NCBI GenBank assembly: GCA_021323755.1
Contig: JAJPKJ010000065.1
Location: 62,001 to 126,000 of the forward strand
Reading direction: 5' to 3'
From: Chitinophagales bacterium
GTDB lineage: Bacteria > Bacteroidota > Bacteroidia > Chitinophagales > Chitinophagaceae
Length of the DNA: 64,000 nt
Below are positions 5,109 to 10,566 of the stretch, piece by piece. A program made the position numbers and the translations under genes. Numbering within the stretch: position 1 is the first letter of the stretch; every line of letters starts with the position of its first letter. A model generated the notes under the pieces. That model saw nothing but the letters and a program-made list of their open reading frames with translations, was not told where the DNA came from and did no database searches.

Positions 5109-5555
5109 CTATATTTTTCTGATTTTTTTGTACGTATACCACTCATTGAAATTGTTTGATTTCAAGATCAGGGTTTCGTCACCATTTTGTAGCGTCACAT
5201 AATACGATGTCTGACCGTCAGCTGCCAGTTCAAACAACTCAGATATCCAATATTTACTGAAATCTTTTTTAAGACTCGTTAATAAATTAATCGGTAATTG
5301 TTCTGAAAGAATATTACGAGCAGTTGCAATTAGATCGCCGGTTTCGTTGTAATAAGCAAACATCACCTGGTTATTTAAAGTAAATGTTGCTTTTGAATAT
5401 TCTTTTTGGCTGTTCCAGCTTACATTTTTCGCTGTTACAAAATCTTTGCTGAATGATGACGATATTTTCTTACTTACACCTTCGTTATCTTTAGCGAAGG
5501 CTCCGGTCAATCCCACCGTAAGCATCATTGCCATTGCTAAAATTGTCTTTTTCAT
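5109..5555 (-). CDS. small secreted protein, paralog 1 (PepSY-like fold suspected)
   Basis: 148 residues with a clear Sec signal peptide (MKKTILAMAMMLTVGLTGAFA), so periplasmic or secreted. The mature part has a repeating beta pattern: an NVSWNSQKEYSKATFTLN strand pair, YYNETGDLIATARNI, then a C-terminal half with YYVTLQNGDETLILKS. It resembles the small PepSY-like periplasmic proteins common in Bacteroidota, but I cannot name a function. The protein at 8617-9084 is a paralog with the same plan (NVQWAKYGDHFSVSF, YDKEGNLLSSIRYY, LPLNILFNVKKEY against LPINLLTSLKKDF). The ATG at 5555 is preferred over 5624 because it begins the signal peptide. Its promoter and terminator are both visible. Confidence 0.82.
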   Translation of the reverse strand: MKKTILAMAMMLTVGLTGAFAKDNEGVSKKISSSFSKDFVTAKNVSWNSQKEYSKATFTLNNQVMFAYYNETGDLIATARNILSEQLPINLLTSLKKDFSKYWISELFELAADGQTSYYVTLQNGDETLILKSNNFNEWYTYKKIRKI

Positions 5556-6135
5556 TTTTTTTGTTTTATAGATTAGAAATTTTTTCTTTATTAATAAGAC
5601 GCAGTTCCCGTTCCGATGTTGCACTCATTTCAAATTATTTTTTCGCTTTCACTTTTCTTTTACAATTCGCTACCATTCTAATTCTTAACAAAGATAAAAT
5701 GTATCAAAATCGAACACAAGTGTCTGTAGACGATACACTATTTTTTAGCGGCGAAACATAGAATTGTTTCGGCGAAATATCCTCATTATATCATTTTATG
5801 AGAAAATTTCTGAAATGAATATGGAAAAGAACTCGTTTCTATTAATAAGATGCAGCAAAATTATTTCGGCTACGCACTTGTTTCAAGCCAATAATGATTA
5901 ACGGAAGTCTATGTTAAGTTATCATGAACAATCATGCCACCAGGTTGCAATTTCATTTTTTTAGTGATGCTGAAGCCCTTATCCACAAAGCGTTTCAGGC
6001 AATCACTAAACATTTATTAAAGCTTAGTTAAGCATTTCTTAAAATGAGGACCGGTTAATAGCAGATTTGACTTGATTTTAAAAATGATTTTATTAATCGG
6101 AAATTTGCCTATTAAACGTTCCAAGACAATTCCAG
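5556..6135. other. 580-base intergenic region between divergent genes
   Basis: Separates the minus-strand secreted protein gene from acpH. It contains the promoter element listed at 5689-5715 and, at 5720-5741, an imperfect GTGTC...ACAC inverted repeat. Short frames here look non-coding by composition. No RNA gene recognised; nothing clear just ahead of acpH. Confidence 0.6.
5689..5715 (-). promoter_or_regulatory. promoter with conserved upstream element (paralog 1)
   Basis: Reading the minus strand: GTTCGATTTTGATACA (5715-5700), three bases, then the Bacteroidota -7 box TATCTTTG (5696-5689). A CTTG at 5720-5717 may serve as the -33 box with a 20-base spacer. The same 16-base element, with one change and the same 3-base offset to a -7-like box, precedes the paralog at 8617-9084. 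Predicted 5' UTR about 125 bases. Confidence 0.6.
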
Positions 6136-6729
6136 ATGAACTATCTCGCTCATGCATACCTGTCGTTTGACGAACCAAAGATTTTGGTTGGCAATATGAT
6201 CAGTGATTTTGTGAAAGGGAAAAAAAGATTTGAATATGACGATATTGTTCAGAAAGGGATCATGTTGCATCGCGCGATCGATGAATTTACGGATACTCAC
6301 GCTGCAACAAGACAAGCAAAGATATTTTTTAAACAGGATTATGGTTTATATAGCGGCGCATTCGTTGATATTGTTTACGATCATTTTTTAGCAAATGATA
6401 TAAATGCGTTTCCCGGACAATCTTTGCATAAATTCACTTTACACACCTATGAGCAGTTAAGCATTTATGAGCATATGTTCCCTGAAAAATTCAGTCGTTT
6501 ATTTTATTATATGCAAAAAGAAAATTGGCTTTTTAATTATCAATTTTCTCAGGGTATATACAAAAGTTTTGGTGGCTTGGTAAGGCGCGCAACCTATATG
6601 CACGAGCATCAAACAGCATTTACTATTTTTGAAAAAAATTATGATGATTTAAAAAATTGCTACAATATATTCTTCCCCCAGGTAAAACAATTTGCAATTG
6701 AAAAAATGAATCAATTATTGCTACGGTAA
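6136..6729 (+). CDS. acpH: acyl carrier protein phosphodiesterase
   Basis: A 197-residue AcpH-family protein, near the usual 190-200. AcpH removes the 4'-phosphopantetheine arm from holo-ACP, working against ACP synthase in the cytoplasm. MNYLAHAYLS at the N-terminus, GNMISDFVKG and GIMLHRAIDEFTD are characteristic; the family is an HD-related metal-dependent hydrolase, consistent with the His and Asp residues in these motifs and YDHFLA near residue 81. ATG at 6136 begins directly with the conserved MNYLAH. asnB starts 44 bases downstream. Confidence 0.9.
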   Translation: MNYLAHAYLSFDEPKILVGNMISDFVKGKKRFEYDDIVQKGIMLHRAIDEFTDTHAATRQAKIFFKQDYGLYSGAFVDIVYDHFLANDINAFPGQSLHKFTLHTYEQLSIYEHMFPEKFSRLFYYMQKENWLFNYQFSQGIYKSFGGLVRRATYMHEHQTAFTIFEKNYDDLKNCYNIFFPQVKQFAIEKMNQLLLR

Positions 6730-6773
6730 TAAATGCATTTGGCATTTGAATGGGGAACTTCGATATTTACACC

Positions 6774-8624
6774 ATGTGTGGAATTGCCGGCATCATATCA
6801 AAAGATTCATCGGTTATTAATGAGGTATTGCTTAAAAAAATGACTGATTCCATAGCCCATCGTGGTCCGGATGGCGAAGGTTTTTGGATAAACAGAAATA
6901 ATACAACTGGTTTGGGTCATCGGAGGTTATCAATAATTGATCTTTCTAACGCTGCCGCACAACCGATGCATTTTCTTGATCGCTATACCATTATTCATAA
7001 TGGTGAAATCTATAATTACATTGAACTAAGAGAACAACTGATTAAGCAGGGATATTCTTTTCGTTCCCAATCAGATACTGAAGTTATTCTTGCCGCATAC
7101 GACAAGTACAAGGAGGCATGTCTTCAGCACTTTGACGGCATGTTTGCTTTTACCATATGGGATGAGAAAGAACAAACCCTGTTTTGCGCTCGTGATCGTT
7201 TCGGGGAAAAGCCTTTTTATTATTCATTTTCAGAAGAGCAATTTCTTTTTGCATCGGAAGCAAAAGCATTATGGGCAGTAGGCCTGGAAAAAAAGATCAA
7301 TTACCCGTTGTTGCTTAATTATCTTGTTTTGGGTTACACCCAAACAGCTGCAGATAAGACAATAACTTTTTTCCAAAACATATTCTCGTTACCGGCAGCA
7401 CATTATCTCAAATTTAGCACCCGGAGTTTTTCATTTGATATCAATAACTATTGGGATTGTGATAAAGAAACAAAACTCTCCATTACTGAAAAAGAGGCCG
7501 TAGAAAAAATCAATGAATTATTTTCTAATTCGGTAAAAAGAAGATTGCGAAGCGATGTTTCTGTTGGGACATCATTGAGCGGTGGATTGGACAGCTCCTC
7601 GATCGTAGCAACCATAAATAAAATACAAAGCACAAATTCACTGCAAACGTTTTCTGCCGTGTTTCCGGGTTTTGAAAAGGATGAATCACCGTATGTTCGA
7701 TCTGTGACAGAAAGATTCAACCTGAAAAATTATACCGTTACTCCCACTGTTGAGGATTTCATAAAAGATCTTGGATCTTTATGCTTCCATCATGAGGTCC
7801 CTTTTTCTTCATCAAGCATCTTTGCACAGTACAAGGTTTTTGAATTGGCAAAACAGCAAGATGTAAAAGTATTATTGGACGGACAGGGAGCTGATGAAAT
7901 ATTGGCAGGCTATAATAAATATATCCATTGGTATTTACAGGAACTATTGGCTGCGCGCAATTTTAAATTCGTCAGGGAAAAAAATGACCTGAAAAAAAAT
8001 AAAATGGATTTTAGCTGGGGCATAAGAAATTATCTCGCTGCATGGTTTCCCGCGCAGACTACTTATCGTTTGGAAAAAAGAGAGATAAAAAAATTATCCC
8101 GATTCCCTGATATAAGGGATGAATTCAGAAATGAGTACCTCGATAAACAATCGATCTTCAAGCCGATTGTTTTTAAACTTAATGATATTTTATATTATTC
8201 CGTTTTTCAGTCGGGTTTGGAAGAATTATTAAGATATGCAGATCGCAACTCAATGGCTCATGGCAGAGAAGTGAGGTTGCCTTTTTTAAACCATGAACTG
8301 GTGCAATTTATCTTTTCACTTCCTTCAACATATAAGATACATGAAGGTTATACAAAATGGATATTGAGAAAAAGCATGGAAACTGTTTTGCCCGGATCAA
8401 TTATCTGGCGCAAAGAAAAAATAGCTTTTGAGCCTCCGCAAAAGAAATGGATGGAAAATGCCTTACTGGAAGAATTTGTCCGTGAAGCAAAACAAAAATT
8501 GGTCAAAGAAGGTGTCTTAAGATCTTCCGCATTAAATAAAAAAATTCAGCCGCACAATGCGTATGCGGCTGAAAACCATGATTGGCGCTATCTTATAGCA
8601 TCAACTTGCATGAATATCATTTAG
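6774..8624 (+). CDS. asnB: asparagine synthase (glutamine-hydrolysing)
   Basis: A 616-residue class II glutamine amidotransferase: residues 1-200 are the N-terminal nucleophile glutaminase (Cys2 after MCG, RGPDGEG near 30), and the C-terminal synthetase has the ATP-pyrophosphatase motif SLSGGLDSSS and LDGQGADEILAGY. It makes asparagine, or a related amidated product, from aspartate, ATP and glutamine. The start is fixed at the ATG of 6774 because Cys must be residue 2; an ATG 24 bases upstream would block the active site. Members of this family also act in polysaccharide and exosortase clusters, but no such neighbours are here. The 3' end overlaps the convergent gene by 8 bases. Confidence 0.93.
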   Translation: MCGIAGIISKDSSVINEVLLKKMTDSIAHRGPDGEGFWINRNNTTGLGHRRLSIIDLSNAAAQPMHFLDRYTIIHNGEIYNYIELREQLIKQGYSFRSQSDTEVILAAYDKYKEACLQHFDGMFAFTIWDEKEQTLFCARDRFGEKPFYYSFSEEQFLFASEAKALWAVGLEKKINYPLLLNYLVLGYTQTAADKTITFFQNIFSLPAAHYLKFSTRSFSFDINNYWDCDKETKLSITEKEAVEKINELFSNSVKRRLRSDVSVGTSLSGGLDSSSIVATINKIQSTNSLQTFSAVFPGFEKDESPYVRSVTERFNLKNYTVTPTVEDFIKDLGSLCFHHEVPFSSSSIFAQYKVFELAKQQDVKVLLDGQGADEILAGYNKYIHWYLQELLAARNFKFVREKNDLKKNKMDFSWGIRNYLAAWFPAQTTYRLEKREIKKLSRFPDIRDEFRNEYLDKQSIFKPIVFKLNDILYYSVFQSGLEELLRYADRNSMAHGREVRLPFLNHELVQFIFSLPSTYKIHEGYTKWILRKSMETVLPGSIIWRKEKIAFEPPQKKWMENALLEEFVREAKQKLVKEGVLRSSALNKKIQPHNAYAAENHDWRYLIASTCMNII

Positions 8625-9084
8625 CCTTGTCAAAACTATCTTTTACGGTGAGGTTTCCTTCAACATCAGAATGCAAAATAGTCCAGCCTTTGTCATCTTC
8701 CAATTGAATTATGTAAGCCGTTCCTTCTGGCACAGAAACTTCTGTAACAACATCAATTTTTTCATTGGCATATTCTTTTTTCACATTGAATAAAATATTC
8801 AAAGGCAGCCGTTCCGCGTTATAATAGCGAATTGAGCTTAATAAATTACCTTCCTTATCATACTCTGCCCGCACGATAATTTGATCCTGCAAAAAACTTA
8901 CAGAAAAATGATCCCCGTATTTTGCCCATTGAACATTGGACGCGCCGTTAAAAACGGAATGAAAGGATTTCAATACTTTTTCATTTACCGTTGAATGATC
9001 ATCTGCCGGATTTGCGTTAACGCAAAAACTGCTCAGCAAAAAAATGCCGCAGATTGAAGCGATTGTTAAAAAATTCTTTTTCAT
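8617..9084 (-). CDS. small secreted protein, paralog 2 (PepSY-like fold suspected)
   Basis: 155 residues with an N-terminal signal peptide (MKKNFLTIASICGIFLLSSF, cleavage likely after VNANA-like VNAN). Mature part: coil, NVQWAKYGDHFSVSFLQ, YDKEGNLLSSIRYYN, LPLNILFNVKKEY, then VPEGTAYIIQLEDDKGWTILHSD. This is the same order of strands and helix as the gene at 5109-5555, so the two are paralogs flanking acpH-asnB. Function unknown; periplasmic location likely. The stop overlaps the asnB stop region by 8 bases on the opposite strand. The upstream region shares a promoter-like element with paralog 1. Confidence 0.82.
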   Translation of the reverse strand: MKKNFLTIASICGIFLLSSFCVNANPADDHSTVNEKVLKSFHSVFNGASNVQWAKYGDHFSVSFLQDQIIVRAEYDKEGNLLSSIRYYNAERLPLNILFNVKKEYANEKIDVVTEVSVPEGTAYIIQLEDDKGWTILHSDVEGNLTVKDSFDKAK

Positions 9085-9218
9085 GACTATACTTTTAAAA
9101 ATGATAAAATAAAAAATTCACTAACCGAAAATAGCATGGCAACCAGGCGAAGTCAAGCAGATCTTTATAACCGGGCCCAGTTGTTAATGACGCTAACATT
9201 TTTTTCAAAATCCTTATG

Positions 9219-9234
9219 TACGATTTTGTTCGTA
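9219..9234. promoter_or_regulatory. inverted repeat TACGA-N6-TCGTA
   Basis: A perfect 5-bp inverted repeat around TTTTGT. Its left half reads TACGATTTTG, close to TTCGATTTTG in the promoter element at 5700-5715, so it may be another binding site for the same regulator. It lies within the predicted leader of paralog 2. Confidence 0.4.
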
Positions 9235-9344
9235 TTTATCGACAGAACCCTTGCCCGGCGTGCGTTTCAAATATGTTGCACAATATTATCTTTTCGCGGT
9301 TAAGCTTCTGTTAAACTACACATCGAGATTTTACATGGAGTCAA

Positions 9345-9371
9345 TAAATTTATTTTGTATCATAATCGAAC
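9345..9371 (-). promoter_or_regulatory. promoter with conserved upstream element (paralog 2)
   Basis: On the minus strand: GTTCGATTATGATACA (9371-9356), three bases, then TAAATTTA (9352-9345), a one-mismatch -7 box. It matches 15 of 16 bases of the element before paralog 1, with identical spacing. The 5' UTR would be about 255 bases. The same site lies 56 bases upstream of the plus-strand PLP enzyme and could also affect it. Confidence 0.55.
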
Positions 9372-9426
9372 ACTAAATGATATAATAATTGTTCATCTTT
9401 GCCGTAAAGATTAATTGACGATAATT

Positions 9427-10566
9427 ATGAAACTAGCAACAAAACTTATACACGCCGGCATTGAACCTGATCCATCTACCGGTGCAATCATGACGCCGAT
9501 ATATCAAACATCTACATATGTTCAAGCCGCGCCGGGAAAAAATAAAGGATATGAATATGCGCGTTCTCAAAATCCAACACGAAAAGTGTTGGAAGATGCC
9601 TGTGCTGCAATTGAAAATGGCAAATTCGGTTTGTGCTTCAGCAGTGGTGTTGCCGCAACGGATGCAGTCATAAAATTACTCCAGCCAGGCGATGAAGTGA
9701 TTGCCTGCAATGATATGTATGGCGGCACATATCGGCTGTTCACCAAGGTATTTGAAAAATTTGGAATAAAATTCCATTACATCAATATGCAAGATGCAGC
9801 CAATGTAAAGAATTTTATCAATGCTAATACAAAACTGATCTGGATTGAGACCCCAACAAATCCGTTAATGAACATCATTGATATTGCTGCTGTTTCCGCA
9901 TTGGCCAAAGGGCAAAACATTTTGGTTTGCGTTGACAATACTTTTGCTTCTCCCTATTTGCAAAATCCGCTGGATCTCGGTGCGGACATTGTTTTACATT
10001 CCGCCACAAAATATCTTGGCGGTCACAGCGATCTTATTCATGGATGTTTGGTGATCAATGACGCTGACCTGCGTGAGAAATTATATTTTCTTCAAAAAAG
10101 TTGTGGCGCCGTTCCCGGGCCTCAGGATTGTTTTCTGGTTTTGCGCGGGCTGAAAACTTTGCACCTGCGCATGCAACGTCATTGTGAGAATGGAGAAAAA
10201 GTAGCTGGATTTTTGCGCACCCATAAAAAGATTGACCGCGTTTACTGGTGCGGGTTTGAAGATCATCCGGGTTACGATATTGCAAAAAAACAAATGCGGG
10301 GCTTTGGCGGCATGATGAGTTTTGAATTAAAAGATAACAGCAAAGAAGCCGTAACAAAAGTTTTATCATCCACCAAAATATTTGCATTGGCAGAAAGTTT
10401 AGGTGGAGTTGAATCGCTCATCAATCATCCTGCTTCGATGACCCACGCTTCCATTCCACGTGAAGAAAGATTAAAAAATGGTTTGACAGATTCATTGATA
10501 AGACTGAGTGTTGGCATTGAAGACATTGATGATCTGATTGATGATTTGCAGCAAGCAATAGGATAA
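9427..10566 (+). CDS. cystathionine gamma-synthase / gamma-lyase family PLP enzyme
   Basis: A 379-residue Cys/Met metabolism PLP enzyme, acting in the cytoplasm in transsulfuration. The PLP-binding Lys is in HSATKYLGGHSD (Lys195); YARSQNPTR, FSSGVAATDA, VDNTFASPYLQ and SLGGVESLINHPASMTH are family signatures. Sequence alone does not separate gamma-synthase from gamma-lyase or methionine gamma-lyase with certainty. The ATG at 9427 is preferred to the in-frame TTG at 9415. The next gene starts two bases after the stop, so they are cotranscribed. Confidence 0.9.
   Translation: MKLATKLIHAGIEPDPSTGAIMTPIYQTSTYVQAAPGKNKGYEYARSQNPTRKVLEDACAAIENGKFGLCFSSGVAATDAVIKLLQPGDEVIACNDMYGGTYRLFTKVFEKFGIKFHYINMQDAANVKNFINANTKLIWIETPTNPLMNIIDIAAVSALAKGQNILVCVDNTFASPYLQNPLDLGADIVLHSATKYLGGHSDLIHGCLVINDADLREKLYFLQKSCGAVPGPQDCFLVLRGLKTLHLRMQRHCENGEKVAGFLRTHKKIDRVYWCGFEDHPGYDIAKKQMRGFGGMMSFELKDNSKEAVTKVLSSTKIFALAESLGGVESLINHPASMTHASIPREERLKNGLTDSLIRLSVGIEDIDDLIDDLQQAIG

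Follow-up and report, generated by a model that had tools for sequence, protein, structure and literature searches.

Why do two nearly identical 16-mers lie upstream of two related genes for small exported proteins in a member of the Chitinophagaceae? The question arises in a 64,000-nucleotide stretch of the genome of a Chitinophagales bacterium (contig JAJPKJ010000065.1, positions 62,001 to 126,000; hereafter the window), in which the two genes, termed gene 1 and gene 2, flank acpH and asnB. The initial annotation proposed a shared promoter element, used by one regulator or by a special sigma factor. Both 16-mers were found as it described, at 5715-5700 (site 1) and 9371-9356 (site 2), each three bases before a TAnnTTT sequence (Table 1). 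Comparison across genomes suggests a different function: a two-component regulator, whose main role in these bacteria would be to govern export pumps, very probably binds the element. Taken as a whole, including the sites before the two exported-protein genes, we judge this reading to be on balance the probable one.

The element is enriched in one lineage

The genome-wide motif search suggested by the initial annotation was informative. With up to 2 mismatches, the annotated pattern had 16 matches in the whole genome compared to 2 for a reversed control, and the sites tracked a regulator and export permeases. At 3 mismatches the excess was modest (447 compared to 326), and meaning was therefore sought only in close matches. 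The exact sequence GTTCGNTTNTGATACA occurred 7 times in the 4.08-Mb genome, including perfect pairs with a spacing of exactly 22 bp. Across the genus, 24 genomes together had 273 sites with up to one mismatch compared to 22 for the reversed control, each genome being above its own control. Fifteen genomes from other families of the order showed no enrichment (22 sites compared to 18). The element is therefore specific to the lineage.

A site matrix was built from 160 sites of relatives, the 5th and 75th percentiles of the training sites being 18.4 and 28.2 bits. Both window sites matched the consensus TGTNCGNTTTTGATACA and scored within this range (26.0 and 23.7 bits). The next-best score in the window was 8.6 bits, and among 20 shuffled windows the maximum was 14.3 bits. 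The modest excess at three mismatches is what one would expect if two AT-rich stretches merely happened to look alike; the genome counts, the enrichment throughout the genus, the conservation in a sister genome (G013) and the matrix scores compared to the shuffled windows rule this out for all practical purposes, and we give it next to no credence.

The element adjoins an NtrC-family regulator and an export operon

In the genome of the window, a perfect pair of the motif sits between an export operon encoding an adaptor, an ATPase and a permease and the gene of an NtrC-family response regulator, with a kinase gene next to it. The three export proteins resemble DarC, DarD and DarB of the darobactin exporter DarBCD, with scores that all remain below the curated NCBIfam cut-offs (152.7/450, 296.8/375 and 174.7/700, respectively). 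RpoN had one match in the genome. An ortholog of the regulator (72-100% identity) was present in 23 of the 24 genus genomes, the best match outside being 42% identical. Regulator loci were then compared, using the closest 80 of 342 named loci (Chitinophagaceae and allied records), 79 of which had sufficient upstream DNA. A site lay upstream of the regulator, within 500 bp and with up to two mismatches, in 72 of the 79, and the reversed control gave 0/79. A second copy, 21-23 bp away and with up to three mismatches, was found in 37/79.

Seven clear sigma-54 activator domains are encoded in the genome, six besides this regulator, and a variant class of site precedes other permeases (see below). 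Some other factor with the same site preference, for example a paralogous Fis-type regulator, might then act at the window sites. However, strong adjoining sites were detected only at this regulator: in the stretches holding the six other enhancer-binding proteins, no site scored above 14.0 bits save the regulator's own pair (28.7 and 23.1 bits). We regard the involvement of another factor as decidedly unlikely.

Many of the regulator genes (L132-L211) also carry, between the sites and the start codon, a conserved leader like AAAAAATTnnTTGCCA...TTTGTAnTTATGGTATA.

Putative export targets share a nearly rigid promoter geometry

At 71 of the 72 regulator loci with a site, GGCAY was found 20-110 bp downstream of the site, toward the adaptor gene; in 66 of those loci, 53-56 or 74-78 bases separated the two. 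At regulator loci, GGCAY is preceded by a TAA-N5-TTGNAAATCA block. The same arrangement was examined in 80 regions carrying 89 sites with up to one mismatch, taken from six relatives (G009, G014, G007, G023, G001 and G018) and leaving out one G018 site and the G001 contig C290, which was read separately as L128. The nearest downstream open frame encoded an ABC (ATP-binding cassette) permease, an ATPase or an adaptor in 55 of the 80 regions, and in 7 further regions the site was inside an open frame matching a permease. YGGCAY was present at the expected offsets in 56/80. Counted by position, it occurred 66 times at 12 offsets, 12 times at the other 113 and 0 times at those same 12 offsets on the opposite side. 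Most sites outside the window thus have a sigma-54-like core, TGGCAY-N4-TTG, at about 54 or 76 bp.

This core differs from the published one. A 2025 survey gives, in the sections available, a rule of 5-7 bases between TGGCAC and TTGC (PMC12316311). Permease targets do not follow it: the spacing between TGGCAY and TTG is mostly 4 bases (47 of 123 cores, compared to 5 bases in 7), whereas grpE of this genome has TGGCAA-N5-TTG. The sigma-54 contact loop of the regulator is also a variant, reading GAFTDA in 71/80 orthologs (L132-L211), GSFTGA in 3, GAFTGA in 2 and GSFTDA in 1, with 3 unread; in this genome it is GSFTDA and not the exact GAFTGA. GAFTDA is listed among loop variants said to keep activity in the available part of one report (PMC4641369), and an excerpt of another describes a GAFTDA protein for which no sigma-54 contact was detected (PMC10714721). 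Because of the shorter core spacing and the GAFTDA loop, our claim is limited to a regulon operating in the manner of a sigma-54 system; it seems to use an alternative sigma factor.

The sections available of the 2025 survey predict that COG0577 ABC permeases in Bacteroidia are under sigma-54 control and call the link to FtsX-like permeases the first evidence (PMC12316311). Both systems belong to one phylum and place FtsX-like export permeases under promoters of the sigma-54 type. They differ in that those sections name no upstream site, regulator or exported BLIP-like proteins, and in the core spacing. A close textbook parallel is NtrB/NtrC at glnALG, which likewise combines a receiver, an AAA+ sigma-54 interaction domain and a Fis-type helix-turn-helix with dyad sites upstream of a -24/-12-like core. 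Here, in contrast, the spacing is nearly fixed, the core is one base shorter, the loop is mostly GAFTDA, the targets are export permeases, and the window sites have no upstream core. An earlier description of this regulon or element was not found in the open-licence PubMed Central literature.

A second class of site was observed before permeases, mostly of the form GCACG-NTTTT-GATACA and scoring 15.7-17.9 bits (L054:3130 and 18286; L055:4183 and 18247; L056:8512; L057:1376, 14278 and 18734). It is accompanied by another conserved block, CTAATTCATTATGCAACAAT-N11-TTGGTC, with GG again at 55-56 bases.

The window sites have a different setting

Translation places the start of gene 1 most likely at 5555, and the 16-mer of site 1 is therefore 145-160 bp upstream of the gene; it has one difference from its counterpart in G013. 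Site 2 has its 16-mer 272-287 bp upstream of gene 2, with the divergent gene at 9424 lying 52 bp away on the other side. Gene 1 is preceded by a putative housekeeping-type promoter with site 1 inside its spacer. A TTG at -33 is part of the TAnnTTTG housekeeping promoter, and in G013 this arrangement is kept as TTG-N20-TAATTTTG. The G013 ortholog of gene 1 is 70% identical. The 39 bp that hold site 1 and its mirrored weak copy, together with the interval one base further on, were the most conserved of 552 upstream intervals compared to G013. At the position of site 2, in the corresponding divergent gap, G013 carries a tandem pair, whereas this genome has a single copy and, in the alignment, is exactly 22 bases shorter.

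The initial annotation proposed a promoter element and, as one option, a special sigma factor; in favour of this, a 3-base spacing to TAnnTTT separates site 1 from TATCTTTG and recurs at site 2 and at gene 1 of G013. If the 16-mer were an extended promoter element read by such a factor together with TAnnTTT, the spacing should recur at other sites. It was found at 0/89 sites of the six relatives and at 0/72 regulator-proximal copies, it is not kept at gene 2 of G013, and most sites have a separate core downstream. At other locations the element lies upstream, usually in the reverse orientation and about 54 or 76 bp from the core. On these counts the promoter-box proposal is rejected, and we consider it very improbable; the TAnnTTT spacing is the weaker evidence for a shared element.

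No sigma-54-like core was detected between either window site and its gene, the best scores being 4.3 bits for gene 1 and -3.0 bits for gene 2 (background 95th percentile, 8.9 bits per 600 bp); in G013 the same gaps gave at best 4.1 and 3.3 bits. Since cores are present elsewhere in the regulon, both sites might still be enhancers that activate the genes via sigma-54 by looping to a degenerate, distant or gene-2-internal core. A candidate of the last kind exists: the best core-like match of the window (19.0 bits) lies within the first codons of gene 2. It scored 13.2 bits in G013 but 4.3 bits or less at that place in four other orthologs (L244-L247), its bases are signal-peptide codons for Gly-Ile-Phe-Leu-Leu, and a transcript beginning there would shorten the protein. 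For these reasons the match is probably a coding coincidence, and activation of the two genes through sigma-54 looks rather unlikely.

Another possibility is that the target of site 2 is the divergent gene at 9424, encoding a Cys/Met-metabolism enzyme, so that gene 1 alone of the two paralogs would belong to the regulon. Site 2 is closer to the start of that gene (52 bp) than to gene 2 (272 bp), and the same divergent gap holds a site in G013. However, scoring the gaps in either direction revealed no core toward the enzyme gene, site 1 stands beside gene 1, to which gene 2 is paralogous, and both a site and a core accompany two other homologs of gene 1 (G001, L128, 19.1 bits; G015, L130, 20.1 bits). 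These two homologs offer independent support for the protein family belonging to the regulon, and we consider exclusive control of the enzyme gene unlikely. Together with the linkage to the regulator and the G013 sites, they also argue for the proposal of the initial annotation that one regulator serves both genes. By density, about 0.07 sites with up to one mismatch would be expected upstream of 60 genes; beyond the window's own two, such a site was carried by gene 1 of G013 and by the G001 gene.

Table 1. Features of the window and the linked regulator gene
Feature	Position	Strand	Details
Gene 1, 148-aa exported BLIP/PepSY-like protein	5109..5555	-	ATG at 5555
Putative housekeeping-type promoter of gene 1	5689..5719	-	TTG (5719-5717)-N20-TATCTTTG (5696-5689); site 1 within spacer
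Site 1, GTGTTCGATTTTGATACATT	5698..5717	-	26.0 bits; 16-mer GTTCGATTTTGATACA at 5715-5700
Mirrored weak second copy	5720..5739	+	5.8 bits (11.5 in G013); 22 bp from site 1; TGTATCG conserved
acpH, acyl carrier protein (ACP) phosphodiesterase	6136..6729	+	PF04336, 199.6 bits; between the two genes
asnB, asparagine synthase	6750..8624	+	PF00733, 246.4 bits; between the two genes
Gene 2, 155-aa exported PepSY-like protein	8617..9084	-	PF11396, 15.9 bits (cut-off 28.3)
Sigma-54-like core match inside first codons of gene 2	9035..9081	-	19.0 bits, best of the window; GG 36 bases after ATG; probably coincidental
Palindrome TACGATTTTGTTCGTA (TACGA-N6-TCGTA)	9219..9234		Not a motif copy; conserved in G013
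TAAATTT	9346..9352	-	3 bases past site 2; not conserved in G013
Site 2, GTGTTCGATTATGATACAAA	9354..9373	-	23.7 bits; 16-mer GTTCGATTATGATACA at 9371-9356
Cys/Met-metabolism pyridoxal phosphate (PLP) enzyme	9424..10566	+	PF01053, 524.2 bits; transcribed away from gene 2; site 2 may act on it instead
NtrC-family response regulator	G000:C73:249940-251295 (L050:9941-11299)		Receiver, sigma-54 interaction and Fis helix-turn-helix domains

Several observations weigh against a regulator site at these genes or in the regulon at large. Firstly, the association is incomplete: 7 of the 79 regulator loci have no site, 18 of the 80 regions have another gene or none downstream, and G003, an 80% complete assembly, has no ortholog of the regulator yet contains 6 sites compared to 0 for its control. 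Secondly, the orientation of the window sites is the reverse of the usual one, and the core-like match at the coding start of gene 2 may leave room for a role of sigma-54 there. Thirdly, the site is rare at relatives of the two genes. It was present in 4/36 loci of the gene 1 family (the window's own two, G013 and G001) and in 2/26 of the gene 2 family (the window's own and G013), and a search of the latter at three mismatches gave 5 matches for the reversed control compared to 3. Among the orthologs of the two genes that were examined, none beyond G013 conserves the site; in G010 and G015, acpH, asnB and the PLP enzyme remain syntenic with these two genes, and neither gene has a site. Conservation at the window genes is thus that seen in G013, a close relative of the window's genome.

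Proposed action of the regulator

From the enrichment, the linkage to the regulator, the promoter geometry and the conservation in G013, all of which were computed, we infer binding by the regulator, the genes that respond, the sign of the effect and the signal. The 16-mer would be the core of a 17-bp dyad, TGT-N11-ACA, contacted by the Fis-type helix-turn-helix of the regulator. Encoded with a histidine kinase and divergently from a MacA/MacB/FtsX-type export operon, the regulator would have ABC export permeases as its main targets; 22-bp tandem sites are common at these, and the core about 54 or 76 bp downstream would allow activation. In this genome and its sister G013, regulator sites would also precede the two BLIP/PepSY-like exported-protein genes.

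For gene 1, the most likely effect of the bound regulator is to repress or modulate housekeeping transcription from within the spacer, because the site fills the spacer of the TTG-N20-TAnnTTTG promoter and no core is present in the gap. A precedent is found in the available text of a report in which NtrC also represses the sigma-70 promoters of the glnALG operon (PMC9731577). In the accessible part of a study of Flavobacterium psychrophilum, sigma-A promoters have TAnnTTTG boxes, and envelope stress and exported proteins are linked to sigma-54 (SM4) promoters (PMC9723704); the -7 box resembles that of gene 1, whereas the organism belongs to another family and that part gives no upstream site. 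The action at gene 2 is less clear, and the target could be gene 2 or the divergent enzyme gene.

A broader proposal can be made, which we find possible rather than probable: a Chitinophagaceae-wide envelope/export regulon would run on a variant sigma-54 mechanism and, in the window's lineage, its regulator would have been rewired to the housekeeping promoters of two BLIP-like proteins. The variant would consist of a GAFTDA-type activator, sites paired at 22 bp and a nearly rigid 54 (or 76) bp to a -24/-12 core one base shorter. If true, the rewiring would couple the two BLIP-like proteins to export-pump signalling via repression and not via sigma-54 activation. MacB/FtsX-type permease arrays recur in the stretches that were read, and little was found in print about their control. 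The element gives access to it by supplying a motif and a candidate regulator, along with a list of targets and a promoter geometry that is nearly rigid. The window pair illustrates how small exported proteins may be drawn into the reach of such a regulator, and from it a role of BLIP/PepSY-like proteins in envelope stress or export is predicted.

The two genes encode related exported proteins

The initial annotation rightly described similar exported proteins flanking acpH-asnB: the products of genes 1 and 2 are 28% identical over 140 residues (E-value 6e-18). Neither reached the curated cut-off of PF11396 (PepSY_like), gene 1 having no match and gene 2 falling short (Table 1); 5 of 20 homologs matched the family at E-values up to 0.05. 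A structure predicted for gene 1, with a model built from the two window sequences, had a confident alpha-beta4 repeat core (predicted local distance difference test, pLDDT, about 90). Foldseek aligned it with 4fr9, 4hbr, 4ipb, 4k61 and 3u1w (TMq 0.71-0.74, 11-15% identity), and a family profile search retrieved 4fr9, 4ipb and 3u1w at E-values below 0.001. Gene 1 is thus predicted to have the BLIP-like alpha-beta4 repeat fold of the Bacteroides BLIP-like/DUF2874 structures and of one related Parabacteroides protein, from which it differs by the low identity and the Pfam score below the cut-off.

Other sequences in the region

The palindrome that the initial annotation had considered related to the 16-mers is present at 9219-9234, but its sequence differs from the motif. 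It was not one of the 14 highest-scoring motif matches in the window, and TACGA-N6-TCGTA was hardly commoner genome-wide than its control (7 sites compared to 4), which rules it out as a third copy of the motif. No Rfam family reached its threshold between 4500 and 10500 when RNA elements were sought. A stretch containing GCTTAAC and conserved compared to G013 is found upstream of both genes, as ATGCTTAACT (~6022-6050) and AAGCTTAACC (~9298-9325), and may be another shared site. At L053:3473-3488, in the same genome, a 24.9-bit site without a core precedes a gene for a 424-aa exported-looking protein, in the orientation of the window sites. Finally, two further copies of TACGA-N6-TCGTA are located exactly 22 bp apart at G000:C22:100280-100317.

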